IMG/VR virus record: IMGVR_UViG_3300023175_002400
Coordinates: 1-41,696 of that record
Reading direction: 5' to 3' (one strand)
DNA: 41,696 nt
DNA from: a virus
Shown here one piece after another: positions 1 through 39,087 of this stretch. Positions within the stretch are counted from its first letter, which is position 1, and every line of letters starts with the position of its first letter. The position numbers and the translations under genes are program-made. The notes beneath the pieces were generated by a model. It worked only from the letters and a program-made list of their open reading frames with translations. It did not search any database and had not been told where the DNA came from.

Positions 1-25
1 GAAAGCATTTAATACTCCATTGTTT

Positions 26-2614: not shown

Positions 2615-2626
2615 ATCTTTCTCCAG

Positions 2627-6868: not shown

Positions 6869-6884
6869 TTAGCATATCCTATAT

Positions 6885-6960: not shown

Positions 6961-6961
6961 A

Positions 6962-7038: not shown

Positions 7039-7240
7039 TTATTTCATAATCTTCCATTACCTCATTTGTAACTTCTTTGGCAATCTTATCAATATCTTTT
7101 TCATTACATTCAATATGAATAATCTTACCAATGCGAACAGATTCTACTCCACCATATCTATCATTCAAGACTTTGGTAACAGCATTACCTGCTTTATCAA
7201 GAATACCATTTCTTAAAGTTACATACACTTCATATTTCAT
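7016..7240 (-). CDS. purS: PurS, FGAM synthase small subunit
   Basis: PurS is the small subunit of the three-part phosphoribosylformylglycinamidine synthase (PurS-PurL-PurQ) in purine synthesis. The N-terminus (MKYEVYVTLRNGILDKAGNA, then RIGKIIHIE) matches the family closely, and the length of 74 aa is normal. The natural end would be near MEDYEI. The last residues, KTCSSIG, are encoded by the first 23 bases of tRNA-Met, and the TAG stop is in the D-arm. The start overlaps the upstream gene by four bases. No purL or purQ is in this window, so it would act with host subunits or genes elsewhere in the phage. Confidence 0.88.
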   Translation of the reverse strand: MKYEVYVTLRNGILDKAGNAVTKVLNDRYGGVESVRIGKIIHIECNEKDIDKIAKEVTNEVMEDYEIKTCSSIG

Positions 7241-7545
7241 GTGTTTCTACACATCCACATATAATCTTTTTTACAAGATTTATATTGCCTCAGATACCAT
7301 CTGTCACGAAAATGCTTATATTCTTCTCTCCAATGTGAACAATATCGTCTTGCTCTACGATGACAAATTTGCCTACGACGATATCTTTGCCAATGTTTAT
7401 CATTTTTATCAATCCTAAAATCAAATCCTTTAGGTCCAATATTCAATTCAAAACTTGGTCCTGCTCTTACAGCAGAAACACCGAATGCAATAGTAATAGC
7501 AGCAACTGCTGCAATTGTCAACAAAACTTTTCCTGTAGTGTTCAT
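7237..7545 (-). CDS. Exported Arg-rich small protein
   Basis: The N-terminus (about residues 1-28) is a signal peptide or membrane anchor with an Ala-rich hydrophobic core ending in VRAG. The mature part, residues 29-102, is strongly basic and aromatic, with RYRRR and HRRARRY runs and five cysteines that could form disulfides. It is predicted periplasmic. The stop overlaps purS and the start overlaps asnB (ATGA at both), giving a tight asnB-this gene-purS operon. No family is recognised. The polycationic nature suggests binding to envelope polyanions or nucleic acid; that is inference. Confidence 0.75.
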   Translation of the reverse strand: MNTTGKVLLTIAAVAAITIAFGVSAVRAGPSFELNIGPKGFDFRIDKNDKHWQRYRRRQICHRRARRYCSHWREEYKHFRDRWYLRQYKSCKKDYMWMCRNT

Positions 7546-19836: not shown

Positions 19837-20817
19837 CTATTCGTAACTCATAATTTTAGTTCCTTCGTCATAGAATTTGAAAGGAAAAATCTTACAATTT
19901 GTTTTATTTTTAAGAGTATGAATAACTTCCTCTCTTTTATCTTCCTTTACATAAAATACAAAGAATCCTCCACCACCAGCACCTAACAATTTGCCTCCAA
20001 TAGCACCAGATTCTTTTGCTATATTGTAAATATTATCCAAATAATCCTCTGTAATATCATTTACAATCTGTCTCTTATTTATCCAAGATTGATGTAAAAG
20101 ATCACCAAAAGAGTCTAAATCTCCAGATAAAATATATTTTATTCCTTCAAATGCCAAATCTCTATTCTGTCTAACTTTATTAAATTTTTCATCATTTAAC
20201 ATAGCATCAGATTGTTTTTGAAGAAAATCATTTCCAACTCTACCTCTTCCACTGTACACTAACAATAAATTATCATTTAATCTTGGAATATTATTATTAT
20301 ATATTTTCCTAACTCTAACATTTCCATCACTATAGAATCTTAGTAAGTTAAACCCACCATAAGAAGCTGCATATTGGTCTTGCTTTCCTACAGGATATCC
20401 ACACCTATTCATCTCAATATCACAAGCACGTTTTGCTATTGTTTCTTTTAATGCATCTGTATTATTTATCTTAAATAGACTATTAACAAGACCTACAGTA
20501 AAGGCAGAAGACGAACCAAGACCAGAACCATTTGAAAATATATCTGATAAAGATGCTATTGTTATTTCAGAATCTATATTAAAAAGTTTAAGAGATTCTT
20601 TTGAAATAATATGCTTCATTTCTTCAATGTTATCTGATTCATCAACAACATCAAACATAGTTTTAATAGGAAGATTTGGTGTTTTTCTCACAATAACGTG
20701 AATAAACTTATCTATTGTTACAGAAAGAGCAGCACCATCTTCTCTTTTGTAGAATGCAGGGGTATCACTACCCCCACTAAAGAAACTAATTCTTAAAGGT
20801 GTTTTCGAAACTATCAT
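19837..20817 (-). CDS. hddA: GHMP sugar kinase, HddA-like heptose-7-phosphate kinase
   Basis: This is predicted to phosphorylate D-glycero-D-manno-heptose 7-phosphate at C1. The GHMP signature GSGLGSSSA is at residues 97-105, the N-terminal RISFFSGGSDTP and central GYPVGKQDQYA blocks are typical of the HddA/mevalonate-kinase-like sugar group, and GGKLLGAGGGGFFVF closes the domain. Length 326 aa, as HddA. It is the last gene of the sugar cassette and overlaps the glycosyltransferase by four bases. Fucose-type kinase relatives cannot be excluded by eye, but the GmhA and GmhB partners favour heptose. Confidence 0.88.
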   Translation of the reverse strand: MIVSKTPLRISFFSGGSDTPAFYKREDGAALSVTIDKFIHVIVRKTPNLPIKTMFDVVDESDNIEEMKHIISKESLKLFNIDSEITIASLSDIFSNGSGLGSSSAFTVGLVNSLFKINNTDALKETIAKRACDIEMNRCGYPVGKQDQYAASYGGFNLLRFYSDGNVRVRKIYNNNIPRLNDNLLLVYSGRGRVGNDFLQKQSDAMLNDEKFNKVRQNRDLAFEGIKYILSGDLDSFGDLLHQSWINKRQIVNDITEDYLDNIYNIAKESGAIGGKLLGAGGGGFFVFYVKEDKREEVIHTLKNKTNCKIFPFKFYDEGTKIMSYE

Positions 20818-21812
20818 TGTGAATCATATACAAACACTTCTGATGGTTTGCCTCTAGATTCTTTTTCTTTATATTCATCAAGAAGATTTTTCATCATAAG
20901 TTCCCACATACCTTTAATTCTCTGAATATTATATCGAGAATCTACAAATGTTTTATTGAAGTTAATCATATCTTTGTGGTTGTTGCTTTTAACAAACTCA
21001 ATAGCAGCATTCAAATGATTTACAAACACATTTGCGTGTTTTCCTTTATCACTATTTCCCTGATACATAATATTCAAAGAACCAGAAGTTTCTGCTAATG
21101 CACCATAGTTTGGATGTACACAAACAAGACCAGCAGACATTGCTTCTAACATTGCTCTACAGCTTGTCTCTACCCAGGTAGAAGGATAGGCAAAAATATG
21201 TGATTTGTTTAGGTGTTCTTTTAGTTCATTGTTTGGAACAAATCCGTGATATGTCATATTTGGATGTTCTCTAATCTCATCATATAATGGTTCGAACTGT
21301 TTATCCATTTCGTCCCAACCATAAATTTTAAAACTTGAAAACACATCAAGATGAATATTCTTATGACGTTCTGTCAAATATTTAAACACTGGAACAAGAA
21401 TCTCTAGTCCTCGTTGTGGTGTTGATGTATATACCAATCTAATTGTGTCATTATCTTTTTGTAAACAAGATTCTGGTGCTGGTTCAATACCACTTTCCAA
21501 AACAATAGATTTATCATCATATGGAAGATTGTGAACTAGTTGATATCTTTGATATTGCCAGTCACTAATAAACACAAACTTATGAAAACTATCTAAAAAT
21601 TCTTTATCTTTGAATTTTGCTGATTCTGGGTCTTCTGGCAAATCGTGGCACCAGAAAACTCTAATTTTTTCCCAATCAAAATCTCTTTGTCTGGAACAAA
21701 TAATTTGAAACTCTTCAAGAAGTTTTGGGTCAATAATATCACCAAGCATTCTTTTAGCAATTTCAGTTCCACCATTTGCATTTTCTGAAATTTCGTTCTC
21801 TTCAAATCCCAT
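20814..21812 (-). CDS. Glycosyltransferase, GT4 (group 1) type
   Basis: The C-terminal half has the GT-B nucleotide-sugar site: LVYTSTPQRGLEIL, a HGFVPNNEL block, and the E-x7-E-type YPSTWVETSCRAMLEAMSAGLVCV. The N-terminus is short for a GT-B enzyme (332 aa in total), but NGGTE, WCHDLP and FISDWQ are typical. It probably transfers the sugar made by this cassette. The acceptor (host lipopolysaccharide, virion protein or DNA) is unknown. It starts at a TAATG junction with the transaldolase. Confidence 0.85.
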   Translation of the reverse strand: MGFEENEISENANGGTEIAKRMLGDIIDPKLLEEFQIICSRQRDFDWEKIRVFWCHDLPEDPESAKFKDKEFLDSFHKFVFISDWQYQRYQLVHNLPYDDKSIVLESGIEPAPESCLQKDNDTIRLVYTSTPQRGLEILVPVFKYLTERHKNIHLDVFSSFKIYGWDEMDKQFEPLYDEIREHPNMTYHGFVPNNELKEHLNKSHIFAYPSTWVETSCRAMLEAMSAGLVCVHPNYGALAETSGSLNIMYQGNSDKGKHANVFVNHLNAAIEFVKSNNHKDMINFNKTFVDSRYNIQRIKGMWELMMKNLLDEYKEKESRGKPSEVFVYDSQ

Positions 21813-22543
21813 TAGTCTATCCTGTATCCTGATTTTACTGCATCATCGTAAAACATTTGAACTGTTTCAATTGAAAACAAATCTAAATCTTTTCCGAATT
21901 TATCTACCTTTTTAATTAAATCTGGTGACATTGTAATAATTTCACAACCAGATTTTTCTGCTTGAACATAATTATATGCTTCTCTTGAAGAAGCCCAAAG
22001 AAACTCAATAGGTGTTCTTGGTTTCACTAATTTTCTATATAAAATAGATTCACTAATAATTTCTTCTGGATTTACTCCAGTATCTGCTATTCTACCAGCA
22101 AATATTGATATAATCATCGGAGTTTCAGAAACAACTCTTTCTATAACATCTACAACTTGATCTGTTGTAAAAACAGCTGTAACATTTAATTTTACATTTT
22201 CAAAATTAAGAGTATCAATAACATCATAGTTATTAATCCCTTTTGTATTTTGAATTGGAATCTTTACATAAACATCATAGTCTCGCTCTTTACCCCAAGA
22301 ATCAATTTTTCTTGCTTGATGAATCATTTCTTCTTTTTCATCAGCAAACACTTCTAGACTTAAAGATGTATTTGGTCTATTTTCTGCTAGATATTTAATA
22401 ACTTTTTTTGAAAATTCTTCGTAATTTTCAACACCTGCTTCCCGCATCAGTGTTGGATTTGTAGTAAATCCTACTACTTTTTCGTTCTTTGAAAGCTCAA
22501 CGATACTATCATAATCAGCACCATCAGCAAATAATTTAACCAT
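21812..22543 (-). CDS. Transaldolase-family protein (TalC-like)
   Basis: This class I aldolase-fold enzyme has FADGADYDSI and GFTTNPTLM at the N-terminus, the Schiff-base Lys in VYVKIPIQN, NVTAVFT and SIFAGRIADTG. At 243 aa it is nearer the short TalC/fructose-6-phosphate aldolase group than full-length transaldolase. In this cassette it could supply sedoheptulose 7-phosphate from pentose phosphate intermediates, feeding the GmhA-type isomerase. I chose the ATG at 22543 with GGAG upstream; an in-frame TTG adds four residues. It overlaps the phosphatase gene by eight bases. Confidence 0.87.
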   Translation of the reverse strand: MVKLFADGADYDSIVELSKNEKVVGFTTNPTLMREAGVENYEEFSKKVIKYLAENRPNTSLSLEVFADEKEEMIHQARKIDSWGKERDYDVYVKIPIQNTKGINNYDVIDTLNFENVKLNVTAVFTTDQVVDVIERVVSETPMIISIFAGRIADTGVNPEEIISESILYRKLVKPRTPIEFLWASSREAYNYVQAEKSGCEIITMSPDLIKKVDKFGKDLDLFSIETVQMFYDDAVKSGYRID

Positions 22544-23048
22544 ATTTATCTCCAATAAGTTTACAAGCGTCTAATACATTATCAACTGCATAATGTGGCA
22601 TAGTATATAGACATTTATCATAGGTTCCAAGAAAAATAGTAATCAAGTTCATTCTATTTCCTGCCATAACATCTTTCCATCTATCACCAATCATAAATGA
22701 TGATTCTACATCAATATCATATTTATCAATCAAATGTTCTAACATACCAGTATTTGGTTTATATAGTTCTGAGTTTCTATCAAAAGCAATCATAATATCA
22801 TCTATTTCAAGTTCCATTTCTAAATGTTTTGTTATTTCATTTAGAGTATCCATAGTCATTTTTTCATCTTTTACATCAGGTTGATTAGTGACTACAAATA
22901 TTAAATATCCTAAATCTTTAACAAGTCTAACTGCTTCTGTTGCACCATCAATAAATTTAAACTCTCCAAAAGTCCAAGGTGCTCTATTATCAACTAGATG
23001 ATTCAGTGTTCCATCTCTGTCAAAAAATATTGCTTTTTGTTTTACCAT
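22536..23048 (-). CDS. gmhB: HAD phosphatase, GmhB-like (heptose bisphosphate)
   Basis: This is predicted to remove the 7-phosphate from heptose 1,7-bisphosphate. The HAD motifs are DRDGT (D10 nucleophile, D12), VVTNQPDV, KPNTGML (motif III Lys) and MIGDRWKDV (motif IV). Canonical GmhB has a four-ligand Cys/His zinc loop before the KP motif; here that region reads AFDRNSELY with no cysteine, so this is a zinc-less form. I chose the ATG at 23048 inside the isomerase gene end; an upstream start would add 16 unrelated residues. Histidinol- or other sugar-phosphatase activity is possible. Confidence 0.82.
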   Translation of the reverse strand: MVKQKAIFFDRDGTLNHLVDNRAPWTFGEFKFIDGATEAVRLVKDLGYLIFVVTNQPDVKDEKMTMDTLNEITKHLEMELEIDDIMIAFDRNSELYKPNTGMLEHLIDKYDIDVESSFMIGDRWKDVMAGNRMNLITIFLGTYDKCLYTMPHYAVDNVLDACKLIGDKYG

Positions 23049-23623
23049 TTTGTTGGATTCACTTGTAAATCTGGATGTGAAACTAAACAATGCCAAATAA
23101 CTGCTTGAAATGCTTCTGAGTGTGGAGTAACTCTATTTTCTTTAATGTACGGAACTACAACAGAAGCATTAGAAGCACGAACAGCATAACCATTAGGTTT
23201 TCCCACAATAGAAAGAACTGTTCCACCTTTTTTTCTAGCATAGTCAATCGCATTGATAAGATTAACTGATACATTTTTTTCTTTGCTTCCTCCACCAACT
23301 GAAAGAACAAACACACAATCATATTCACTAAATCTTGAAACTTTTAAATACTCAACAAATGTAGTTTCAAACCCTTCATCATTTGTTCTTGCTGATAATT
23401 CACTTACATTATCTGTAGGAGCATATGCCTCAATACCACAAAGTTTTCTTAAATCATTTACCATATGAGAAGCATTTGCTGCTGAACCACCAACACCTAA
23501 AACAAATACTCTACCCATATCTTTATAATCTTTTAGATAAGCAACCATTTTATGAATTGATTGTCTGTCAATTCCCAGTGCAATATCTTGAACTTCATAC
23601 ATATAATTATTGATGTGATTCAT
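23042..23623 (-). CDS. gmhA: SIS-domain isomerase, GmhA-like sedoheptulose-7-phosphate isomerase
   Basis: This is predicted to convert sedoheptulose 7-phosphate to D-glycero-D-manno-heptose 7-phosphate. The SIS phosphosugar motifs are VLGVGGSAANASHM and VLSVGGGSKEKNVS. The C-terminal HSEAFQAVIWHCLVSHP supplies the Glu/His helix of GmhA proteins. The length of 193 aa is standard. It overlaps the nucleotidyltransferase by 17 bases and the phosphatase by seven, so the three steps are translationally coupled. Confidence 0.9.
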   Translation of the reverse strand: MNHINNYMYEVQDIALGIDRQSIHKMVAYLKDYKDMGRVFVLGVGGSAANASHMVNDLRKLCGIEAYAPTDNVSELSARTNDEGFETTFVEYLKVSRFSEYDCVFVLSVGGGSKEKNVSVNLINAIDYARKKGGTVLSIVGKPNGYAVRASNASVVVPYIKENRVTPHSEAFQAVIWHCLVSHPDLQVNPTKW

Positions 23624-24029
23624 TAATTCTATTCCTCAATTCACTTGAACTAAAAGTATGTTTTCTAGATGTAAAGTATATAGTTATATTTCTTTCATTA
23701 CATATACTTTCTCCAGTTATATCAATTCCTGAATTATTATACTCTTCTCCTAAAAATCTAATACCAATATCCTCAACACACAGTAGGTTTTCTAAATCTT
23801 GCTCTGTGTCATATGGAATGACATCATCTACATATTCACACCCTTTTAGTTGTAAATATCTTTCATAAACACTCTGAATTGGTTTATTTTTTGTTGTAGG
23901 TCTGTCAATAGTTGGATCGGTGTGTAATCCCACAATCAAATATTCACAGTGTTCTTTACATTCTTTTAACATCGCAATATGACCTGCGTGAAGCAAATCA
24001 AAAGCACCGCAAGTAAACCCTATTATCAT
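23607..24029 (-). CDS. Cytidylyltransferase-fold nucleotidyltransferase, HldE C-domain/TagD-like
   Basis: The HxGH motif (HAGH, residues 14-17) after GFTCGAFDLL, the PTTKNKPIQSVYERY segment and the C-terminal SSSELRNRI (ISSTxxR-like) mark the nucleotidyltransferase superfamily. At 140 aa it is a lone domain. In this cassette it most likely activates heptose 1-phosphate to a nucleotide-heptose (ADP-heptose if HldE-like). Glycerol-3-phosphate cytidylyltransferase is the main alternative, since the family assignment by eye cannot fix the substrate. Confidence 0.85.
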   Translation of the reverse strand: MIIGFTCGAFDLLHAGHIAMLKECKEHCEYLIVGLHTDPTIDRPTTKNKPIQSVYERYLQLKGCEYVDDVIPYDTEQDLENLLCVEDIGIRFLGEEYNNSGIDITGESICNERNITIYFTSRKHTFSSSELRNRINESHQ

Positions 24030-24031
24030 TA

Positions 24032-24286
24032 TTAATAACCATCTATAATTTGAACATATCTAACATTAGCAATATCAAAAGTGAAATATTCACCATTCAT
24101 TACATTAAATGCTGAAATAAGTTTTTTATTTTCCTCGTGAAACTTCTTCTCTTCCTTATAATCTTCTTCAATATATCTTTTAGGTAAAAGATCTGGTTTA
24201 AGTGTAAGTCTTACTACACCTTCATTGAAAGTGATTTCAATAACATTATGTCTTAAATCTTTTAAGACTTCATTTCTATTGAACAT
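24032..24286 (-). CDS. Small conserved phage protein, DUF2693-like, 84 aa
   Basis: The pattern of an N-terminal VLKDLRHNVIEITF strand pair, TLKPDLLPKRY, and a C-terminal FTFDIANVRYVQI resembles small T4-like phage proteins of the DUF2693 kind, which I assign with modest confidence. It looks like a small beta fold. It lies in the sugar cassette but is probably unrelated to it. Confidence 0.6.
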   Translation of the reverse strand: MFNRNEVLKDLRHNVIEITFNEGVVRLTLKPDLLPKRYIEEDYKEEKKFHEENKKLISAFNVMNGEYFTFDIANVRYVQIIDGY

Positions 24287-24287
24287 A

Positions 24288-24980
24288 TTATTCTTTCCTG
24301 TAACTTGCTTTAATATTTTGTTTTTCTAATATTTTAAATCCATTGTTAAATAAAGATTCTTCAGTTTTGTCGTGGTCATACATCCAAATATCGTCGTAAA
24401 CAAAAACAGTTCCTGATACAGACCTTTCTAAAAAGAAATCTGTTTCTAAAGTTACTGATTTATTATCGTGAGGACCATCAAAAAATACAAATGCATATTG
24501 ATTTAAAAGTGTTTTTTCATCATTATATACAGGAACACCATCTGAATATCTATTGAAAAATTCGTAGTCTTCTAAACAAAAGAAATTAAAATTAAGACCA
24601 GCATCATAAGCATAGTAATATAACGATGGGATGACACGATTCCTCATTTTATTATCATAATCAAATGTTTGCTTAGATGTAATTTCTTTTGACTGAGGAT
24701 CGCCTTCAATTTTTCTTTCAGGATTATGTAGAGTCATATTAAGATTAGTACAATCAATCTCAATATTACCATATGGGTCAATACAGAACATTGACCTATT
24801 TGTATTATTGTTACCAACAAGAGTATCAATAATCATTTTAGCAGAACCACCTCTCCGTGTGCCAATCTCAACAATTGCACCTTCAGTATTTTCTACTTTA
24901 GCAACAGCATTTACAAGAATTTCATACTCCTGCGAATCTGTTCCAAAAACTTCCTCATCACTAAATCTAATAATAGTCAT
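24288..24980 (-). CDS. Class I SAM-dependent methyltransferase-like protein
   Basis: The Rossmann motif I is VEIGTRRGGSA (residues 37-47), followed by FCIDPYG (motif II acidic residue), YAFVFFDGPHD and TVFVYDDIWMYD. This is the arrangement of Methyltransf_24-type enzymes, often found in surface-polysaccharide clusters. Length 230 aa. It is the first gene of the sugar cassette and starts just after a terminator, so its promoter must lie within or just past that hairpin; none is obvious. It could methylate a sugar or glycan end. Confidence 0.78.
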   Translation of the reverse strand: MTIIRFSDEEVFGTDSQEYEILVNAVAKVENTEGAIVEIGTRRGGSAKMIIDTLVGNNNTNRSMFCIDPYGNIEIDCTNLNMTLHNPERKIEGDPQSKEITSKQTFDYDNKMRNRVIPSLYYYAYDAGLNFNFFCLEDYEFFNRYSDGVPVYNDEKTLLNQYAFVFFDGPHDNKSVTLETDFFLERSVSGTVFVYDDIWMYDHDKTEESLFNNGFKILEKQNIKASYRKE

Positions 24981-24992
24981 ATTTTCTCCAAA

Positions 24993-25024
24993 TAAAAAAA
25001 GGTAGCATAAGTTATATGCTACCT
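24993..25024 (-). terminator. Rho-independent terminator before the sugar cassette
   Basis: The minus strand has a 10-bp perfect stem AGGTAGCATA/TATGCTACCT (arms 25000-25009 and 25015-25024), 5-base loop, then seven T (24994-25000). It overlaps the stop codon of the last micro-protein and separates the tRNA/micro-protein transcript from the sugar cassette. Confidence 0.92.
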
Positions 25025-25110
25025 GTTAATCTTAATATTGTCAATACTAATGTTGTAAAAGATGTTAAAAATAACAAAAACATTAAAACATAAAAACAAG
25101 CATCATACAT
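25012..25110 (-). CDS. Membrane micro-protein, 32 aa
   Basis: A single hydrophobic helix (FYVLMFLLFLTSFTTLVLTI) takes up most of the chain, followed by a short basic end. The ATG is two bases after the previous stop codon and the TAA lies in the terminator loop. No family is recognised. Confidence 0.5.
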   Translation of the reverse strand: MYDACFYVLMFLLFLTSFTTLVLTILRLTGSI

Positions 25111-25111
25111 T

Positions 25112-25228
25112 TTAGATATTTAGAGCTAGAGAAAAACAAGTAATAACAGTTAATAAAATAAACATTTTACCGATTAAGATTGCTGAAAATTTATCTTCCT
25201 GTTTTTGTTTTAACATGTAATCTTGCAT
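25112..25228 (-). CDS. Membrane micro-protein, 38 aa
   Basis: A charged N-terminus (QDYMLKQKQEDK) is followed by one hydrophobic helix (about residues 15-37). A strong GAGGAGA precedes the ATG by eight bases, which is the best evidence that it is translated. No family is recognised. Confidence 0.6.
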   Translation of the reverse strand: MQDYMLKQKQEDKFSAILIGKMFILLTVITCFSLALNI

Positions 25229-25240
25229 TTTTAATTCTCC

Positions 25241-25348
25241 TCATAAGTTAATTAGTTTATATCCTAAAAATAGCATAGCACTACCAGTAACAAGTAACAC
25301 ACTTGTTACTGCAAAAAATGATTCGTATTTTCCTAATTTTCTAATCAT
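25241..25348 (-). CDS. Membrane micro-protein, 35 aa
   Basis: A basic start (MIRKLGKYE) precedes a hydrophobic helix at about residues 11-33. AAGGAAAG lies before the ATG. The gene follows tRNA-Asn by 20 bases and begins the set of three micro-proteins. No family is recognised. Confidence 0.55.
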   Translation of the reverse strand: MIRKLGKYESFFAVTSVLLVTGSAMLFLGYKLINL

Positions 25349-25368
25349 TTACTTTCCTTATTTAAGTT

Positions 25369-25443
25369 TGGCTCCCCAGGATGGATTCGAACCACCGACC
25401 GGACGGTTAACAGCCGTCTGCTCTGCCACTGAGCTACTAGGGA
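25369..25443 (-). tRNA. tRNA-Asn (anticodon GTT)
   Basis: The cloverleaf has acceptor TCCCTAG/CTGGGGA (one T-G pair), D stem GCTC/GAGC, anticodon stem GACGG/CCGTC with loop CTGTTAA, T stem GGTGG/CCATC with loop TTCGAAT, discriminator G and encoded CCA; 75 bases. It decodes AAT/AAC, frequent codons here. Confidence 0.97.
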
Positions 25444-25450
25444 ATATTTC

Positions 25451-25536
25451 TGGTACGGACGGCCAGACTTGAACTGGCACGACTTTAAGTCGAGAGATTT
25501 TAAGTCTCTTGTGTCTACCTATTCCACCACGCCCGC
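25451..25536 (-). tRNA. tRNA-Leu (anticodon TAA)
   Basis: This 86-base class II tRNA has acceptor GCGGGCG/CGTCCGT, anticodon stem GAGAC... with loop CTTAAAA, a long variable arm (CGACTTAAAGTCG forms a stem), T loop TTCAAGT, discriminator A and encoded CCA. It decodes TTA, the main Leu codon of AT-rich genomes. Confidence 0.97.
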
Positions 25537-25538
25537 AT

Positions 25539-25546
25539 TATTTATA
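25539..25546 (-). promoter_or_regulatory. TATAAATA box at the tRNA-Leu 5' end
   Basis: The minus strand reads TATAAATA two bases before the tRNA-Leu 5' end, overlapping the stop codon of the 57-aa gene. A transcript from it would start inside the tRNA, so it cannot make the full tRNA; it is probably a chance match, or serves only the micro-proteins downstream. Confidence 0.15.
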
Positions 25547-25715
25547 GAATATCTATAACACGACCTGATGAATCAATTGCCCTAACTCTTTTACCTGATG
25601 AATTAAAGCTTACTTGTTTCATACACTGGATGATATATGGTTGAATGTTATCAACCACTTGTTGTGTAATCCAGTTCCCCATAGTGTCTTGGTATTGAAT
25701 TTGTACTTGATTCAT
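25542..25715 (-). CDS. Small hypothetical protein, 57 aa
   Basis: This is a Gln-rich soluble protein (MNQVQIQYQDTMGNWI) ending SSGRVIDIL. A strong AAGGAGAGGT precedes the ATG, and a perfect consensus promoter is located 28 bases upstream of the start, so it should be well expressed and co-transcribed with tRNA-Leu and tRNA-Asn. The W and GKRVRAID part recalls small beta-rich phage proteins, but no family is recognised. Confidence 0.72.
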   Translation of the reverse strand: MNQVQIQYQDTMGNWITQQVVDNIQPYIIQCMKQVSFNSSGKRVRAIDSSGRVIDIL

Positions 25716-25742
25716 ATCACCTCTCCTTCATTTAATATATAT

Positions 25743-25771
25743 ATTATATCATTATTAAGTATCATTGTCAA
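25743..25771 (-). promoter_or_regulatory. Perfect-consensus sigma-70 promoter for the tRNA operon
   Basis: On the minus strand there is TTGACA (25766-25771), a 17-base spacer and TATAAT (25743-25748). It drives the 57-aa gene, tRNA-Leu, tRNA-Asn and the three micro-proteins, up to the terminator at 24993. The -35 box lies in the last codons of the upstream small gene. Confidence 0.9.
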
Positions 25772-25913
25772 GCTTTTTTTTCCTTATAACTTTTGAATGG
25801 CTGTCTGCCATCATAGCAAATTTAAATCTATATACAAAATCATACTCTTTAGGTTCATATACTTTAACTATAGTCACAAACTCGTTAATTGTGCCAACGA
25901 CCTCGGTGGTCAT
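25755..25913 (-). CDS. Putative small protein, 52 aa
   Basis: The frame continues past the end of the M15 peptidase gene and codes for a soluble peptide with VYEPKEYDFVYRFKFAMMAD in the middle and a basic KVIRKKKL end. The start at 25913 overlaps the peptidase gene by 29 bases and has no good ribosome-binding site; GTG codons upstream are alternatives. It fills the only space before the tRNA-operon promoter. The call is tentative. Confidence 0.42.
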   Translation of the reverse strand: MTTEVVGTINEFVTIVKVYEPKEYDFVYRFKFAMMADSHSKVIRKKKLDNDT

Positions 25914-26496
25914 CGATGTGGATATGATTAAATCGGCCTGAGTATGTCCCAACACCACCACCCCATGTTGTTTTCAGATAACGTGCAACCTGTCTATATT
26001 TTCCCCGTGGTGGATTAAAGTCCACTGCTCGGCAATATCTATGCATTGAAGGTCTACCAGTTTTTCTTACTGTTGCACCTGGACGACAAGATGATGAAAT
26101 GCGAATTTTACCAAACTTAGATTCAACAACACGTAATTTATTTGCTACAGAAACTGGCATTCTGTGTCCTTTAAATTTTGTTAACCCAGAACGTGCCACT
26201 CTACTTTTTCGTGATTTGTAAATTCTTTTCTTAGCATACCTTCTTTTTTTGGAATATACTTTTTTCTTAGCGTATCTTTTTCTCTTAGAATATACTTTTT
26301 TCTTAGCATATCTTTTTCTCTTAGAATATACTTTTTTCTTAACAATTTTTTGTTTGTAAAATACCGGTTGTCCATCAACCCATTTAATGGCCGCTTCTGC
26401 TTTTGTTGATGTTAGTGCAACTAACACAAACACTAAAACAATAAGAAATCCTACTCCAATTGAGTAAAAACGATTAAACACTTTCTTTCTCCTCAT
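25885..26496 (-). CDS. Exported M15-type peptidase with basic tandem repeats
   Basis: An N-terminal signal peptide or anchor (about residues 1-36, hydrophobic core IGVGFLIVLVFVLVAL, AEA end) is followed by three 12-residue basic repeats (KKKVYSKRKRYA type, residues 53-88) plus a degenerate fourth. The C-terminal domain is of the M15/YcbK zinc peptidase kind: SSCRPG, SMHRYCRAVDF (H152, D159) and NHIHID (H191, H193, D195). It probably cuts peptidoglycan peptides in the periplasm and could be a lysis enzyme or an envelope remodeller. The repeats may bind lipopolysaccharide or nucleic acid. It is the third of three consecutive exported proteins. Confidence 0.85.
   Translation of the reverse strand: MRRKKVFNRFYSIGVGFLIVLVFVLVALTSTKAEAAIKWVDGQPVFYKQKIVKKKVYSKRKRYAKKKVYSKRKRYAKKKVYSKKRRYAKKRIYKSRKSRVARSGLTKFKGHRMPVSVANKLRVVESKFGKIRISSSCRPGATVRKTGRPSMHRYCRAVDFNPPRGKYRQVARYLKTTWGGGVGTYSGRFNHIHIDDHRGRWHN
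26233..26340 (-). repeat. Three tandem 36-base repeats in the peptidase gene
   Basis: Units occupy 26305-26340, 26269-26304 and 26233-26268, with a degenerate fourth unit to about 26197. Each codes for a KKKVYSK(R/K)(K/R)RYA block. The first two units are nearly identical in DNA, which points to recent duplication and possible copy-number variation. They lie within coding sequence with no spacers, so they are not a CRISPR array. Confidence 0.92.
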
Positions 26497-26500
26497 TTGT

Positions 26501-26857
26501 TTAACTTACTGGCCAATACACACATCGTGCATAACCAGAACTTTCTTTTGCTTTTTCATCATAAGAATATGGATGCTGCTCAAAATTACCAATACAAATA
26601 TGAACATTAGAATCTTCCGAATGCAACATCTTAACTAACTTAGAATTATCTGGAACAAATGCTGTCCCGTGTTTTGAAGTCATTAACCAACCTTTATTTG
26701 ATTTATGACGAACCATTTTAATTACAGGAGCACAGTCTTTTTCATTACAACACCATTTATCATACCAACTATGTGAATATGCTTCTTGAATATAAACAAA
26801 TCCAATAAAATACAAAAAGGTAATAAGAATTAAAATAAACTGTGCTCCTTTACTCAT
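26501..26857 (-). CDS. Exported Cys-rich protein with WCCNEKDC motif
   Basis: An N-terminal hydrophobic segment (FILILITFLYFIGFVYI, about residues 6-24) is a signal or anchor, directly followed by SHSWYDKWCCNEKDCAPV. The same WYD-CC-x3-DC pattern is, as I recall, common in exported proteins of alphaproteobacteria and their phages. More cysteines occur in HICIGNF and YARCVYW, suggesting disulfides in the periplasm. The function is unknown. It overlaps the nuclease gene by four bases and precedes the peptidase gene by four. Confidence 0.75.
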   Translation of the reverse strand: MSKGAQFILILITFLYFIGFVYIQEAYSHSWYDKWCCNEKDCAPVIKMVRHKSNKGWLMTSKHGTAFVPDNSKLVKMLHSEDSNVHICIGNFEQHPYSYDEKAKESSGYARCVYWPVS

Positions 26858-27345
26858 TTACACCAATCCTTCTTCTTACCTTTCCCGCCAATATATACGG
26901 CAGCGTGTTTATTGTCAATTAATAATTTGCTAAGAAGTTTACCATCCAAGGAGATATCCCCAACTATTCTTCCTCCAAACTTACCCCACTTTTTGAGAAT
27001 GATTCTTACTTCCCTAGCGTTCTGGATTTGTTCTGTGGTAAACTCTTTTGCTTTTTGTGCTTTCTTTCTCTCTAAATCACACTTTGCAAGGTGATTTTTC
27101 TCTGGAGTATCAACACCATCAATTCTTAATTTGAGAGTTTTTTTGAGAGGGTCTGGTAAGAATTTTGCTTCAAATTCTACTGTGTCTCCATCTACAATTT
27201 TAACAATTTTATAGTTATATTTTTTGTTATGTAGGAATATAAGAGATGATACTGATTCTAATCCTTGGACATCAGCATACCCTAGATAACCGGCACAAAA
27301 AATTCCTCCTGCTACGATAGTAGCAAAGATAGTTTTCTTTCTCAT
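26854..27345 (-). CDS. Exported thermonuclease (staphylococcal nuclease family)
   Basis: After a signal peptide (about residues 1-25) comes an SNase domain: KIVDGDTVEFE, LRIDGVDTPE (R74, D79, E82) and a GGRIVGDISLDG segment carrying the second catalytic Arg. The key residues are present, so it should cut DNA or RNA with calcium. It is predicted periplasmic or membrane-tethered. I chose the ATG at 27345, with GAGG just upstream, over a TTG five codons earlier. It is the first of three exported proteins in a row. Confidence 0.87.
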   Translation of the reverse strand: MRKKTIFATIVAGGIFCAGYLGYADVQGLESVSSLIFLHNKKYNYKIVKIVDGDTVEFEAKFLPDPLKKTLKLRIDGVDTPEKNHLAKCDLERKKAQKAKEFTTEQIQNAREVRIILKKWGKFGGRIVGDISLDGKLLSKLLIDNKHAAVYIGGKGKKKDWCK

Positions 27346-27346
27346 T

Positions 27347-27703
27347 TTAATCCTCTTCAATATTCTCTACATCATCAGCAATCACATATTGTGCATCACT
27401 ATCTAATGGTTGATTAAATTCCAATACTTTTCTTACATTGATGATTCTTTCTTCAACACTTTTAATAGTTTTTCTAGTGTTTTCATCATTAAAATCATCT
27501 TCTAAATCGTGAAGTGCTGCTTGTAAATTAGTATCAGCACAATAATCCACGTGAAATTTTCTTCCATCCTTATCAGTATATCGCTTCAAAGGAGGGAACA
27601 AAATTTCCTGGATTTGTTGAAGTTTTTCTTCTGCGGGAGTTTTAGGTTCTTTTTTATTAAAAGAATACAGGTGTGTTAATAGTGGTGTATCAAAAATTTT
27701 CAT
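27347..27703 (-). CDS. Hypothetical protein downstream of regA, 118 aa
   Basis: I do not recognise a family. The sequence is soluble and acidic with a helical C-terminal half (NLQAALHDLEDDF, IKSVEERIINVRKVL). The order gp44-gp62-regA-this gene suggests membership of the replication operon. Its end abuts the nuclease start. Confidence 0.68.
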   Translation of the reverse strand: MKIFDTPLLTHLYSFNKKEPKTPAEEKLQQIQEILFPPLKRYTDKDGRKFHVDYCADTNLQAALHDLEDDFNDENTRKTIKSVEERIINVRKVLEFNQPLDSDAQYVIADDVENIEED

Positions 27704-27717
27704 AATATATTTACCTA

Positions 27718-28119
27718 TTATCTATTTCGTTTTCTGCCGATATTATATTTTGCCTCTAGAACCCATTCACTTTTTTCTTTGTGAGGAATAATTTTAATTT
27801 GTCCCATAGGTGCTCTAGGAGATTCAATTTTTTCTAGGTTTACAACTGAAACCAAATCCCATTCTTTTAGAAGATTTACGATAGTATTTCTTCTACCTTT
27901 ATCTTCATCAGAGAAATCAGTTGATTTTCCATCAAGAGCAAATAACTCTTTAAAATGTACAATATAATATTTACCCTGTTTATGTAAAATATGACAGGAT
28001 TGATAAAGTTTATTTTCTTTTCTAGAAGCAATACCAATGCGAGTTAAAGTCTCCTTTATTTTAAGGAAATCTTCGTCTTCAGCAATAGTCACTTCAACAA
28101 GATTATCTAGATTGCTCAT
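27718..28119 (-). CDS. regA: RegA translational repressor
   Basis: RegA binds the translation start regions of early phage mRNAs, including clamp-loader messages in T4. The match to T4 RegA is strong: FLKIKETLTRIGIA, LYQSCHILHKQGKYYIVHFKELFALDG and a final KYNIGRKRN. Length 133 aa (T4: 122). It sits just after gp62, as in T4, with an ATGA overlap, so it may regulate its own operon (45-44-62-regA). Confidence 0.96.
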   Translation of the reverse strand: MSNLDNLVEVTIAEDEDFLKIKETLTRIGIASRKENKLYQSCHILHKQGKYYIVHFKELFALDGKSTDFSDEDKGRRNTIVNLLKEWDLVSVVNLEKIESPRAPMGQIKIIPHKEKSEWVLEAKYNIGRKRNR

Positions 28120-28493
28120 TTTTCTCCACCTTTTTGTAATTTTTCTTTAATTTTGTAGAGTTGTTCCTTAGTCAGAACTTTAATCGCTTGTTCTGCTTTC
28201 TTACGATTATATTTATAATAATCACAAACTAAAGAAATGTCATCAAAAGGTAAAGTTTTATCTCTTTTAAAGAATCTTTTTCTTGCTTTTATAGAATAAA
28301 AAAGATATTCATAATGCATTTTATCTTCTAGATGTCTATTCATATTCATTTCATTTGAATAAAGAATAGTATCTAGATAGTTAGAAAGAACTTTATTTGT
28401 TCTTCCTGCTATATATTTTTCTTCGGAATTAACTTCTAAATATTTTTTATCTCTTGTTATACTATTTTCATATCTCCAATCATACTTATTCAT
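28116..28493 (-). CDS. 62: Clamp loader small subunit, T4 gp62
   Basis: This is the fifth subunit of the gp44/62 complex that loads the gp45 clamp. It shows the family pattern LYSNEMNMNRHLEDKM, SIKARKRFFK and a C-terminal KAEQAIKVLTKEQL...GGEK. Length 125 aa, shorter than T4 gp62 (187) but like the marine phage forms. Its position between gp44 and regA supports the call. Confidence 0.85.
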   Translation of the reverse strand: MNKYDWRYENSITRDKKYLEVNSEEKYIAGRTNKVLSNYLDTILYSNEMNMNRHLEDKMHYEYLFYSIKARKRFFKRDKTLPFDDISLVCDYYKYNRKKAEQAIKVLTKEQLYKIKEKLQKGGEK

Positions 28494-28743
28494 CGTCTAA
28501 ATTATCTTCAATTACTTCATTTTGTTGTTTCATACCCTCAGTAACAATAGTATTGAACTCTTTTTGTGTCATTTCAACTCTATTGTCTGTGTTTATTTCT
28601 TGTTTACAATATGCAATTTCAGCATCATTCCAAGTTCCTGTGCTACCAATTTTATACTGATATACATATCTATTACCAAGAGGATTATCTTGATAAACAT
28701 CAAGAACATTTAAAACTCTAACAGCTGTAATATTTTTTGTCAT
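28486..28743 (-). CDS. Hypothetical protein between gp44 and gp62, 85 aa
   Basis: I do not recognise a family. It appears as a small beta-type N-terminal half (AVRVLNVLDVYQDNPLGNRYVYQYKIG) and an acidic helical end. It is inserted between the two clamp-loader genes, overlapping gp62 by eight bases. T4 has no gene here, so it is an accessory insertion that keeps operon continuity. Confidence 0.65.
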   Translation of the reverse strand: MTKNITAVRVLNVLDVYQDNPLGNRYVYQYKIGSTGTWNDAEIAYCKQEINTDNRVEMTQKEFNTIVTEGMKQQNEVIEDNLDDE

Positions 28744-28750
28744 AATAACC

Positions 28751-29692
28751 TCACTTATCTAAAATTTCACATTCTACCATAACTTCAACTAAAAATGCCA
28801 TAAAGTTAATCTCTGCATCTGCAACAAATGCATTTTGATACTGATATTTACCAAGTAAAATAATTAGGTGTGGTAAAGTTTGCTTTGTAAAATATTCAGC
28901 ACCGTGTTCATAAAACTGTCTATATAATTCATTCATATCACAATCTGAGTTGTTGTACAACCAATTCCTTAACATTGGATAATTTTTCTGTTTAAGAATT
29001 GAAATTAACTCTGTAATAGAAGTTTCTTTTACATCAACAAGAATACCAGTATCAATTTTTCCTGATGAAGAATATCTTTGTAGTTCGTTTAAAACTCTTC
29101 TAAAATCAGGAAAATATTTTTGAATAATTTCAGCAATCACACTTCTTTCATATTCTATACCTTCATTTTTAAGAATCATTTCAATTCTTTTCATAAAACA
29201 CATAGCAAGTTTAACTTTATCATTTTTGTTAAAGTTAAAATCAATCACTGTGCATCGTGAATGTAGAGGTTGAATGATTCTGTTTTTGAAATTACAGGTA
29301 AGAATAAATCCACAATTTTTAGAGAACTCTTCCATAAAATTACGAAGAGCAGGTTGTGTTGAATTAGCATTTAGATAATCTGCTTCATCAAGAATAATAT
29401 ACTTCTTACCACCATATAGAGATACTGTTGAAGCAAAATTATGAATTTCATTTCTAAGAGTATCAATATTACCATTTAAAGAACCATTGATAACTAGATA
29501 TTCACATTCCAGTTCAGTAAGAACTGCTTTTGCAACACTTGTTTTTCCAACACCAGAGGTTCCAGATAAAATCATATTTGGAATCTCTTTTTTATCAACA
29601 AAAGATTGAAAAACAGATTTCATATTATCAGGCAAAATAGTATCTTTTACAGACTTTGGTCTGTAAAGTTCAGTCCACAAAAACTGTTCCAT
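28751..29692 (-). CDS. 44: Clamp loader large subunit, T4 gp44
   Basis: This AAA+ ATPase opens and loads the sliding clamp. Walker A is SGTSGVGKT at residues 43-51, Walker B is IILDEADYLN (DEAD, 102-105), and the SRC arginine-finger motif is present in QPLHSRCTVIDF. The C-terminal collar domain follows. Length 313 aa (T4: 319). It lies 13 bases after the gp45 gene. Confidence 0.96.
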   Translation of the reverse strand: MEQFLWTELYRPKSVKDTILPDNMKSVFQSFVDKKEIPNMILSGTSGVGKTSVAKAVLTELECEYLVINGSLNGNIDTLRNEIHNFASTVSLYGGKKYIILDEADYLNANSTQPALRNFMEEFSKNCGFILTCNFKNRIIQPLHSRCTVIDFNFNKNDKVKLAMCFMKRIEMILKNEGIEYERSVIAEIIQKYFPDFRRVLNELQRYSSSGKIDTGILVDVKETSITELISILKQKNYPMLRNWLYNNSDCDMNELYRQFYEHGAEYFTKQTLPHLIILLGKYQYQNAFVADAEINFMAFLVEVMVECEILDK

Positions 29693-29705
29693 TTTATTTC
29701 CTCAA

Positions 29706-30365
29706 TTAATTCATCACACTTTGATGATCATAACGAATCCAATACTCAATAACATTACCATAGAACTTTGCAACACCTTGTCCTAAAACAATTCTATAGT
29801 CATCACCAAGTATTTTAATATTTTCTGCTAAGAAAATTGCTTTAAAGTTATTATCGGTTTCACCAACAATAATCTCAAAGTTATTACCAGAGTCTAATTT
29901 CACATCACAGACAATCATTTTTAGTTTACCATCTTTTCCTTCAAATACAATATTAGGAACAGATAGAACAGATAATGCTTTTTCTGCATCTTTTAGATTT
30001 TGTGATGTTATGTTGAACTCTGCTACTTGTGGATCGGTAGTCAGTTTATGTTCTGGTATGACACATTTACTAATAAGTTCTTCATCTACATACATATAAT
30101 TGATAGATCTGTTACCATCAGTAATAGTAACATATGATTCTTGGAAAATCAACTCTGGTTCGTAAAACATTGATAAACAAGAGATAAATTTACTTAAATC
30201 ATAAACTGCAAAGTCTCGTTCAAATGGAACTGGAAGATATGCCTCTGCAATAGTATTTCTTGATTCTGAAATAACACCAATTTTATTTCCCTTTTTTACA
30301 GAAAGGGATAAACTGTTTTGTGCAAAGTTTTTCAAAATATTAATAATATTTTTATCAATTTTCAT
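29706..30365 (-). CDS. 45: Sliding clamp, T4 gp45
   Basis: This trimeric processivity clamp tethers gp43 and, in T4, also activates late transcription through gp55 and gp33. The protein (219 aa; T4: 228) shows the gp45 pattern: LKNFAQNSLSLSVKKGN, YDLSKFISCLSMF and a C-terminal GQGVAKFYGNVIEYW. The neighbours 44, 62 and regA are in the T4 order. Confidence 0.94.
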   Translation of the reverse strand: MKIDKNIINILKNFAQNSLSLSVKKGNKIGVISESRNTIAEAYLPVPFERDFAVYDLSKFISCLSMFYEPELIFQESYVTITDGNRSINYMYVDEELISKCVIPEHKLTTDPQVAEFNITSQNLKDAEKALSVLSVPNIVFEGKDGKLKMIVCDVKLDSGNNFEIIVGETDNNFKAIFLAENIKILGDDYRIVLGQGVAKFYGNVIEYWIRYDHQSVMN

Positions 30366-30379
30366 AATATAATCCTAAT

Positions 30380-31231
30380 TTATTTCTTTTTAGCTTTAGA
30401 AAGATTAGAAGGGTCTGCTGTTGCTGCAGCACCAATTGCTGCAAGGTCTGCAAGAGAACCACCAAAAATATACGAACCAACATGTTGAAGTTGCATCCAA
30501 GGACATAGCCAAGTTTTAAGTCCTGCTTCTTGTGCTTTTTGACAGAACCAATAATCTTCTGATAAATATCGCTTTGTTTTTGGATCAATTTCTGCTTGGA
30601 AATATTGCATAATTTCACGAGATCCATCAAAATGTTCTGTTCTTACATGATCTGGTTTATACATATACTCTTTATATGATTCTTGAAATTTAGACATTGC
30701 ATTTTTTGTAACCATCATAAATCCAGTTCCAATTTCTAAAACTTCCACTGGATCAGATAGCTTAATTTGATTTTGACCACTTTTTGGATTAAACACATAA
30801 TCTCCTACAAACTTTTCTAGAACATTACTTTCTTCATCAGCAACTCCTTTATCTACTGCTCTTTTAATTTTTTCCCAAGAAATACACTTCTTAGGATATG
30901 GCCCACCAATAATATCATAGTCTTCATTTTGAGACTGAAGTGCCATAAGTGCAATAACATCTTGTGGATTGAATCCAATATCAGAGTCAATAAACATAAG
31001 ATGGTTTGCATCAGACCTCATAAATTCATCACAACAATAGTTTCGTGCCCTAGTAATCAAGGATTCATTAAACATAAAATATAATTGTAATGGAATTTGG
31101 TGTTTAGCACAAAATGCTGATAGATCTGCTACACTCTTGGTAAACATACCAGCACACTGTCCGCCATACATGGGCGTAGCAATAAACAGTTTATTTTTTC
31201 TAAGAGTTTCTATTTCAATTTTTATTTCCAT
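30380..31231 (-). CDS. GT-A glycosyltransferase-like protein in the replication operon
   Basis: A GT-A-type core is seen: KLFIATPMYGGQ at the N-terminus, a DxD-like LMFIDSDIGF near residue 95, EIGTGFMMVTK near 165 and SEDYWFCQKAQEAG near 220. The Gly/Ala-rich C-terminal tail is low complexity. Related proteins occur in T4-like cyanophages, as I recall, close to gp45. Whether it glycosylates DNA, a virion protein or an envelope target is unknown. It overlaps the deformylase-like gene by 17 bases. Confidence 0.75.
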   Translation of the reverse strand: MEIKIEIETLRKNKLFIATPMYGGQCAGMFTKSVADLSAFCAKHQIPLQLYFMFNESLITRARNYCCDEFMRSDANHLMFIDSDIGFNPQDVIALMALQSQNEDYDIIGGPYPKKCISWEKIKRAVDKGVADEESNVLEKFVGDYVFNPKSGQNQIKLSDPVEVLEIGTGFMMVTKNAMSKFQESYKEYMYKPDHVRTEHFDGSREIMQYFQAEIDPKTKRYLSEDYWFCQKAQEAGLKTWLCPWMQLQHVGSYIFGGSLADLAAIGAAATADPSNLSKAKKK

Positions 31232-37722: not shown

Positions 37723-39087
37723 TTACATTAGGTTATTAACAATAACTTTTCTGTAGTACTTGTTAGAGTTAATTGCAAGACCATCATCAGTAAATGGTGT
37801 TAAACCTTTTGCGAATGGGTTTGCAATCATACCGTAACGAGTTTTGAACCCTACCTTTGGCTGGAAGGAGAGAGGATCAACTGCTCTGACCATCTGTAGA
37901 GGAACATATGGGCAGTAGAACAGACCAGCATCAAATGCTGATGAACCCTTATAACCAACAGTCATATAGTTACCACCGACAGCATATGGATCGATGTAAA
38001 CTTTTAGACGACCGTTAAGAACACCAGCAAAAGTATTGCCTGTGTCATCAACTTCTAGGTTATTTGAATTTAGTGCTGGTGCATAATCAAGAACACCGGC
38101 CATTTGTAGAGCTGAAGCAACATCTGATGAACAAAGCACCATGTTGCCTTTCCCTCTACGAGTCTCTCTTGCGATTCTGTTCGCTTCTCTTTCGAGTTGG
38201 AACATAAGACCCTTGAACTTTTCAACTGACCAACGACCGTTTGAATCTGTGTCTAGATCAAAAACACCAGAAGTAGTAGTGTTTAGGTCAGCACCAGTTT
38301 CAGCAGTAATGTTAATTGTACGAATAACTTCACGGTTGATTTCAGCAAGAATTTCAGAAGAAAGAATGTTGCTGAGTTCAGTTTCAGCATCAAGACCGTG
38401 GATTGCCTTTAGGTCTTGTGCTAGTTCCATAGTGTATTCTGCTTTTAGAGCACGAGTCTTAGCAGTCACAGTTAGTTTCTCAATAGAGAAAGCCATTTCT
38501 GGGAATGCTGTATTACCATCAGTACCAAGAGTTTCAGCTTGTGCTGTTGACATACCAGAACCAGTGTTGTATGTGTTAACAGCTGTTAATGGAGAAGTGT
38601 TAGAAGCACCAGGAATACCTGAGTTTTCTACATGTTGCTGACCAAAAGTATTGGCACCAGAAACAACAGAAGAAAATGCAGTATTAACTTCGTTGAAGAA
38701 AGTTTCGTCACCAGCTTGGTTAGCATAACGTGAACGCATTGCGAAAATAAGACCAGTTGGACCAGTCATTGGCTGGACACCACAAATGTCGTATGCAACT
38801 AGGTTTGGCATTGCACGACGAACAAGTGAAATAAGAACTGGATCAAAGATATCAACAGCACCGTCTGCTGCTGTTGAAGAAGAAGCACCCATAATGTTTG
38901 TAGCAGCTGGGTTAGCTTCTGTTAGAGTTTGATAACTACCGTGTGCTGCATCTTCTCTTAGTGCTTTTTCAGTATTTTCTAGAACTAGAGCAGTAACAGA
39001 ACGACGGTGTGTATCTTTAATGGAACCAACTGAGTCACAGTCTAGGACTGGAGCCCACTTATTTTGAATATCCTCGGATAAATACAT
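37723..39087 (-). CDS. 23: Major capsid protein, T4 gp23
   Basis: This is the precursor of the main capsid subunit. Its N-terminal part (about residues 1-60) would be cut by the gp21 protease during maturation. The family pattern is seen in NIQNKWAPVLD-like DIQNKWAPVLDCDSV, LVRRAMPNLVAYDICGVQPMTGPTG and GFKTRYGMIANPFA. Length 454 aa, shorter than T4 (521), as in marine T4-like phages. The codon use is less AT-biased than that of the neighbours, as expected for a highly expressed gene. A late promoter lies 33 bases upstream. Confidence 0.97.
   Translation of the reverse strand: MYLSEDIQNKWAPVLDCDSVGSIKDTHRRSVTALVLENTEKALREDAAHGSYQTLTEANPAATNIMGASSSTAADGAVDIFDPVLISLVRRAMPNLVAYDICGVQPMTGPTGLIFAMRSRYANQAGDETFFNEVNTAFSSVVSGANTFGQQHVENSGIPGASNTSPLTAVNTYNTGSGMSTAQAETLGTDGNTAFPEMAFSIEKLTVTAKTRALKAEYTMELAQDLKAIHGLDAETELSNILSSEILAEINREVIRTINITAETGADLNTTTSGVFDLDTDSNGRWSVEKFKGLMFQLEREANRIARETRRGKGNMVLCSSDVASALQMAGVLDYAPALNSNNLEVDDTGNTFAGVLNGRLKVYIDPYAVGGNYMTVGYKGSSAFDAGLFYCPYVPLQMVRAVDPLSFQPKVGFKTRYGMIANPFAKGLTPFTDDGLAINSNKYYRKVIVNNLM

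Follow-up and report, generated by a model that had tools for sequence, protein, structure and literature searches.

Our analysis points to an ordinary catalytic family in an unusual arrangement in a T4-like phage: an M15-type peptidase carrying a variable, probably exported polycationic tether that appears to be common to two unrelated wall enzymes, the other being of the RlpA type. We consider it fairly probable that the protein is exported and acts on the wall as an accessory peptidase, with a cationic envelope tether that can be exchanged between enzymes, and it is unlikely to be the sole lysin of the phage.

The window, by which we mean the whole stretch of DNA analysed (G000), is a 41,696-base virus record, a fragment with a GC content near 0.30. 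Family searches identified a T4-like major capsid protein Gp23 at 37723-39087 (E 1.6e-151) as well as a T4-like scaffold protein, RegA, the clamp-loader A subunit and a late sigma factor; the window genes left unnamed by these searches include some that we take to be gp41, gp43, gp44, gp46, gp47, UvsX and neck genes in T4 nomenclature. The best-ranked cultured capsid for Gp23 was that of Stenotrophomonas phage DLP6 (69.8%), followed by Pelagibacter phage Mosig (64.5%) and marine single-cell records, with Methylophilales phages (63.9%) and Sinorhizobium phages (63.5%) further down. The phage group studied here is known from metagenome contigs alone.

The M15 gene and its polycationic tether

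The earlier note had placed an exported M15 peptidase at 25885-26496; an ORF of 203 aa occupies these coordinates, and export of its product is probable by inspection. The gene comprises the following features.

25885..26496, minus strand: coding sequence of a putative exported M15 peptidase, 203 aa, ATG start (ORF; PF08291, E 2.1e-9; 11 relatives aligned)
26392..26496, minus strand: probable Sec signal peptide, residues 1-35, predicted cleavage between AEA and A (read from the sequence; similar N-termini in relatives)
26332..26391, minus strand: N-terminal module AIKWVDGQPVFYKQKIVKKK, residues 36-55, common to exported RlpA-type proteins (pattern matches, DNA alignment)
26233..26340, minus strand: three 36-bp units coding for KKKVYSKRKRYA, KKKVYSKRKRYA and KKKVYSKKRRYA, residues 53-88 (Tandem Repeats Finder, lag analysis)
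26197..26232, minus strand: degenerate fourth unit, KKRIYKSRKSRV (sequence)
25888..26193, minus strand: M15_3 catalytic domain, residues 102-203 (profile match, alignment, structure model, dN well below dS)
26041..26043, minus strand: H152 codon, putative zinc ligand (invariant in 12 of 12 rows; H-x6-D as in YcbK according to the available part of PMC3927764)
26020..26022, minus strand: D159 codon, putative zinc ligand of H-x6-D (invariant in 12 of 12 rows)
25918..25920, minus strand: H193 codon, putative zinc ligand in H-x-H (invariant in 12 of 12 rows)

The window ORF matched Peptidase_M15_3 (PF08291) with 37.9 bits against a cut-off of 23.2. Its signal peptide, as judged by inspection, has an n-region RRKK, a long hydrophobic stretch and then the AEA site. 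SAR endolysins are defined by an uncleaved signal-arrest-release anchor; in the M15 protein an AxA site follows the hydrophobic stretch.

The three putative zinc ligands are intact, as the earlier note had stated, and R138 and H191 are likewise invariant in the 12-row alignment, which left out L011 (cut by a contig end) and L022 (14 residues). Protein identity to the window M15 ranged from 49 to 100% among the 11 aligned relatives, and the last 102 residues were conserved at 72-100% identity in a 10-sequence alignment. The dN/dS value was about 0.05-0.16 in six of nine relatives, no ratio being formable for L004 (dN 0), L010 and L012 (dS saturated). The M15 catalytic domain is thus under strong purifying selection. 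Three positions ahead of the last His stands Asn (His in L009), where Ply500-type M15 enzymes have Asp, and this substitution is what might suggest a catalytically dead relative that merely binds. We regard that as very improbable, given the invariance of the three ligands and R138 and the strength of the selection; moreover, four cellular M15/DUF882 relatives that we inspected also lack the Asp at this position.

The AlphaFold model of the full protein was of low confidence (mean pLDDT 66.3, and below 50 over tether residues 60-101), and that of the catalytic domain was moderate (mean pLDDT 74.6). Neither model gave a Foldseek match in the PDB at E<=0.001, nor did a PDB sequence search with the M15 profile give a match. 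With a second structural aligner, however, ranks 1-32 of the 50 rows listed for the domain model were hedgehog, the 1lbu DD-peptidase, VldE or VanXY (Z 6.0-7.7, a range under 8 that can reflect a common arrangement and is not by itself proof of fold), and the first unrelated row stood at Z 5.7. The LAS-type rows above all unrelated ones included VanXYg, and the zinc DD-peptidase 1lbu aligned over 95 residues with Z 7.2 and rmsd 3.5. The domain is therefore predicted to have a fold of the M15/hedgehog (LAS) type.

The window protein falls below the cut-off for the MepK family (NF053624; 18.4 bits against 185). MepK/YcbK (KPN_00953) is a periplasmic endopeptidase of M15 type that, like the window protein, has H-x6-D and a final His; in the part of the YcbK article available, YcbK lacks the H-x-H that the window protein has (PMC3927764).

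Three near-identical 36-base basic units had been proposed between the signal peptide and the peptidase domain, and both Tandem Repeats Finder and codon shuffling bear this out, with the degenerate fourth unit in addition. The array was called at 26226-26341 with period 36, 3.2 copies and a score of 190, the best other array in the window scoring 57. The units, with the consensus KKKVYSK(R/K)(K/R)RYA, lie at 26340-26305, 26304-26269 and 26268-26233 and differ per 36 bases by one (units 1 and 2), five (1 and 3) or six (2 and 3) changes. At lag 36, 65 of 72 positions in the linker matched, and the maximum in 5,000 codon shuffles was 52; since none of the 5,000 reached the observed value, the 36-base periodicity is not an effect of codon composition.

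Linker residues 37-101 include 31 K/R and only one D/E. In 12 tethers (L011 included; L001, identical to the window protein, left out) the length ranged from 29 to 67 and the net charge was positive in every case, at 0.39-0.46 per residue in 10 sequences and 0.23 and 0.32 in the other two, the lengths and charges of L008, L009, L010 and L012 being approximate because of poor automatic cleavage guesses. A wall hydrolase with an N-terminal Lys/Arg-rich extension is also the design of Artilysins, in which, according to the available portion of the source, a polycationic nonapeptide KRKKRKKRK is added to an endolysin by engineering (PMC6023083). Artilysins, however, are engineered and applied from outside, whereas the window M15 is natural, produced inside and putatively exported, with a tandem-repeat tether of about 65 residues.

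Variation among relatives

M15 loci were found 12 times in a first scan of viral contigs and 13 times in a second, which added one fragment. Close relatives agree with the earlier suggestion that repeat number may vary between strains. L004/L016, one relative that is 99.1% identical to the window over 8,525 bp, has a tether that is net 18 bp shorter, which can be read as the loss of one 36-bp unit and the gain of an 18-bp half unit. L006 is 95.8-97.4% identical in the genes upstream of M15, yet it carries a different, shorter tether. The positive charge of the tether is thus kept while the repeat number varies between close relatives.

The near identity of the units in DNA, their variable number and the predicted disorder of the tether would all fit neutral replication slippage in a disordered spacer, with the charge as a by-product and no binding role. 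That net charge is positive in 12 of 12 sequences, including tethers that have no repeat, and that the same module precedes RlpA (see below) make this explanation quite unlikely.

The gene itself is absent from one relative. L199 matches window 24167-25929 and 26771-30943 at 98.3% identity and has none of the 841 bases in between, a gap covering M15 except for its last codons, together with the greater part of the neighbouring gene for a Cys-containing protein; as this is one short contig, the gap could be a deletion or an assembly fault.

Beyond this group, relatives were distant. The full-length M15 protein had no match at E<=0.01 among 50,697 phage records, and the nearest cultured-phage M15 matches were weak, several being annotated as endolysin. 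The M15 endolysins of Proteus and Klebsiella phages such as Pm5460 belong to the same catalytic family (about 32-37% identity in the domain); the Pm5460 enzyme, however, has 117 aa and no visible signal peptide or tether, whereas the window M15 is tethered and putatively exported. A 'peptidase M15 family protein' of Rhizobium phage RHph_N46 (QXV73925.1) is probably exported and has the same H-x2-C-x3-D form of the motif as the window protein, but it has 145 aa, lacks the cationic repeat tether and is 30.5% identical over the domain; the record of this large phage also annotates a separate 'lysozyme-like protein'. Among plasmid records there were 10 remote M15 matches with 30-41% identity and E 0.03 to 0.6, including alphaproteobacterial DUF882/M15 proteins, one with a lipoprotein-like N-terminus. 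Two scans of cellular genome contigs for a cellular origin of the M15 protein returned no confirmed relative, the second being a weak test in that its viral-contig twin also returned none despite the known carriers there; we think that low-complexity masking removed them from that scan.

A module common to M15 and RlpA-type genes

The first 20 or so residues past the M15 signal peptide, A[IV]KWVDGQPVFY..K.VKKK, also open an exported RlpA-type protein. The case came from the relatives of the Cys-containing protein: on L196, a probably exported protein of 168 aa carries AVKWVDGQPVFYTKKVVKKK and basic residues after its signal peptide and a DPBB/RlpA domain at its end (DPBB_1, E 1.8e-19; PDB 4avr, E 1.7e-22). 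Twelve viral contigs carried a match to a degenerate DNA pattern encoding KWVDG.P.FY, six in M15 genes and six in RlpA-type genes, one of the latter ending at a contig edge before the DPBB domain; two additional RlpA genes carry KWIDGQPVFY. The window M15 protein has no DPBB domain, so that only the N-terminal module is common to the two. RlpA (rare lipoprotein A) is present in T4-like alphaproteobacterial phages such as phiM12, according to the available text of PMC10783043. The phiM12 match covers residues 79-168 only, that is, the RlpA domain and not the module. RlpA has a catalytic fold (DPBB) different from that of M15, and in the present group it carries the cationic module.

At the DNA level, the M15 gene of L011/L202 is 86% identical to RlpA genes over 71 nt (E 1.5e-16, against eight loci); for the module of the window itself, the identity to L216 over 71 nt is lower, at 79% (E 3.6e-8). 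In both kinds of gene the shared DNA starts at the same position, some 9 bases ahead of the predicted mature N-terminus, and the signal-peptide DNA further upstream shows no relationship, with 3-6 of 15 positions matching in each block from -90 to -16. Most simply, the module would have been recombined or exchanged between M15 and RlpA genes. Being common to an unrelated wall enzyme, a link that the window by itself could not reveal, it looks like a reusable envelope tag. Literature searches, mostly of open-access articles, found no description of a cationic module common to phage M15 and RlpA proteins.

The species represented by the window probably encodes both tagged enzymes, since L225 (G031) is 99.8% identical to window 1-4896 (4,896 bp) and carries an RlpA gene at 8209-8688, about 3.3 kb past the left end. 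An RlpA gene stands at the same place in L227 (G032; 98.2% and 98.6%) and in the more distant L228 (G033; 76-92%). M15 and a module-bearing RlpA were found on one contig in none of the eight RlpA records, all of them fragments, in a search that had no positive control. Near the RlpA gene of L225, at 6700-6894, we also noticed a 64-aa protein that starts with a hydrophobic segment and contains the basic stretch KVKKIKVKRHYVKRNY.

A bolder proposal, to which we give somewhat less than even chances, is that phages of this T4-like group possess a natural, mobile polycationic tag for envelope retention, which recombination moves between exported wall enzymes of unrelated kinds (M15 and RlpA). One phage species would then have several tagged enzymes in the periplasm at the same time early in infection, and repeat slippage would set the dose of charge.

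Neighbourhood, lysis genes and the role of the M15 protein

A run of genes on the same strand ends in M15: clamp-loader A subunit, RegA, a 118-aa protein, a nuclease, the Cys-containing protein and M15. The features immediately upstream of M15 are as follows.

26501..26857, minus strand: Cys-containing, probably exported protein, 118 aa, no family (family searches; adjoins M15 in L001-L006 and L008)
26854..27360, minus strand: staphylococcal-nuclease-like, probably exported protein (PF00565, E 3e-6; phrog_452, E 9.9e-17)
26890..26918, minus strand: sigma-70-type box pair, 11/12, just upstream of the Cys and M15 genes (inside the nuclease coding sequence)

The Cys protein matched no family and nothing in plasmid records; it has relatives at 11 viral loci, two of them partial, and in L196 and L197 its gene is present without M15 beside it. 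The window has 14 sigma-70-like boxes that match at 11 or 12 positions, whereas 20 simulations averaged 3.65 and reached at most 9; the conservation of the box pair near M15 may be a coding constraint, because it lies inside the nuclease gene. The late-promoter sequence TATAAATA occurred 9 times in the window against 8.9 expected, a chance level that makes it uninformative overall. Taken together, the gene order and promoter-like sequences favour early or middle expression of M15. An early promoter is ascribed to T4 gene e as well (PMC9004378), and since a T4-type lysozyme gene can be early too, the position of M15 is compatible with a lysis role.

The operon-like order with probably exported nuclease-like and Cys-containing proteins, the early-type position and the occurrence of the M15 gene in different genomic contexts could also indicate a periplasmic superinfection-exclusion or wall-modifying factor, acting with the neighbouring exported nuclease against incoming phages and not in lysis. 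However, such a factor has no known homologue, and our literature search showed no such peptidase. Furthermore, in L007, L012 and G001 (109972-111461) a GH114-related protein (by Pfam in G001 alone) adjoins M15 instead of the nuclease and Cys genes. We think a role in exclusion unlikely.

Several other genes and elements of the window were noticed. A tRNA pair Asn-Leu lies just downstream of M15 (25369-25536, minus strand) and a pair Arg-Met at 6885-7038 (minus strand). PurS-like and asparagine-synthase-like genes (7016-7240 and 7542-9098, both minus strand) are apparent phage metabolism genes, and at 7237-7545 (minus strand) there is a probably exported Arg/Tyr/Cys-rich protein of 102 aa with no convincing family and with relatives in L227 (97%) and L228 (57%). 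By Pfam, the minus-strand run at 19837-24029 encodes GHMP kinase, glycosyltransferase, transaldolase, HAD phosphatase, SIS-domain and cytidylyltransferase-like proteins, a sugar-nucleotide-type run that to us reads like a heptose pathway. Compared with window 12445-13832, L020 shows two extra stretches, each about 1.2 kb long, in what is presumably a ribonucleotide-reductase-like gene; they lie near 12976-12984 and 13343 and could be introns, inteins or homing elements.

The earlier note saw no other lysis gene in the window, and we too found no other lysis family there among the 41 of 62 genes searched (Pfam and/or PHROGs), the remaining 21 being mostly T4-like core by similarity; the window is, however, a fragment. 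L226 (G002), which overlaps its right end at 99.2% and 97.5%, encodes a 92-aa holin-like protein about 11.5 kb beyond that end (phrog_3427, E 6e-5), a weak assignment in that Pfam GTA_holin_3TM gave 20.1 bits, below the cut-off of 24.8. G001, a 126-kb relative whose M15 is 49-50% identical, has a separate, free-standing CHAP/TIGR02594 protein of 173 aa (111.3 bits against a cut-off of 70.55), a holin-like protein below the cut-off (22.1 against 24.8 bits), an exported RlpA that lacks the motif, a nuclease whose N-terminus is signal-like and the GH114-type protein adjoining M15; a PF00959 lysozyme was not found in G001. Its free-standing form suggests that the G001 CHAP protein may be the endolysin. 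Its best PHROG, however, was 'baseplate hub subunit and tail lysozyme' (E 2.5e-32), against E 5.8e-4 for 'endolysin', and its cultured-phage matches bear names of both kinds. On L039, a CHAP relative adjoins relatives of three consecutive structural-region genes of G001. The CHAP proteins of the relatives may be tail-associated.

Among 30 chosen records, M15 occurred in 13 (one of which, G025, holds 14 residues of it) and TIGR02594 in seven (six above the cut-off), with both in G001 and G017; because the records were picked for having M15, CHAP or a gene related to window gene 30380-31231, these tallies are not frequencies. In the contigs closest to the window (G002, G019-G021 and G027-G029, fragments of 5-26 kb) we found neither CHAP/TIGR02594 nor another endolysin. 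L035, a T4-like contig (gp32, gp59, late coactivator) with a GC content of 0.32, encodes a 430-aa GH-like + CHAP protein, and its name has the same metagenome number as the contig of G002, which is only suggestive of its belonging to the window's species. A canonical endolysin elsewhere, which would speak against the lysin proposed in the earlier note, was thus seen in relatives only.

These data bear on whether M15 is the main lysin, a Sec-exported, holin-independent endolysin whose cationic tether would also disturb the outer membrane from inside. In layout the protein is similar to exported endolysins as well as to Artilysins. Endolysins exported by way of a cleavable signal peptide have been described, such as Lys44 of fOg44, according to the available parts of PMC7143992 and PMC6023083, and an autolysin-like enzyme, gp67 of the marine T4-like phage Melnitz, has been proposed as a lysin in the portion of PMC9004378 available. 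The endolysin annotation of several weak cultured-phage matches, the lack of an endolysin of another type in the closest contigs and the possible tail association of the relatives' CHAP proteins argue in the same direction. We keep this rival because no other endolysin has been shown in this species. Its standing as sole lysin is lowered by the weak holin-like gene beyond the right end, the separate CHAP proteins of M15-bearing relatives, the GH-like + CHAP protein of L035, the absence of M15 in L199 and the position of the gene after RegA, so that we consider a main-lysin role unlikely. Of the envelope-targeted lysin with a polycationic tether first proposed, the probably exported M15 protein with such a tether stands, whereas the argument that it is the lysis gene for want of another is weakened.

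We favour, instead, an accessory exported wall peptidase. The M15 protein would be exported by Sec and its signal peptide removed, after which the C-terminal zinc M15 (LAS-fold) domain would cut stem peptides or cross-links of the host peptidoglycan in the periplasm. The Lys/Arg/Tyr-rich tether, with its KWVDGQPVFY motif first, may keep the enzyme, by electrostatic attraction, on a negatively charged surface of the envelope, whether peptidoglycan, LPS or membrane. The tether would change by gain and loss of repeat units and may be exchangeable between enzymes, given that the module also opens an exported RlpA of this phage group. The M15 gene would serve an accessory, probably early or middle wall-remodelling function, its product being made beside an exported nuclease; it may contribute to lysis or change the wall for some other purpose.

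In summary, a natural phage protein was found that resembles the Artilysin layout and whose cationic module is apparently common to a second wall enzyme. In the M15/RlpA tether, both repeat slippage and the exchange of a domain can be read within one phage group. Should the module indeed serve as an envelope tag, it would be a natural, testable example of how a phage places and times its wall enzymes, and would raise the question of why a phage exports wall enzymes early, well before lysis.
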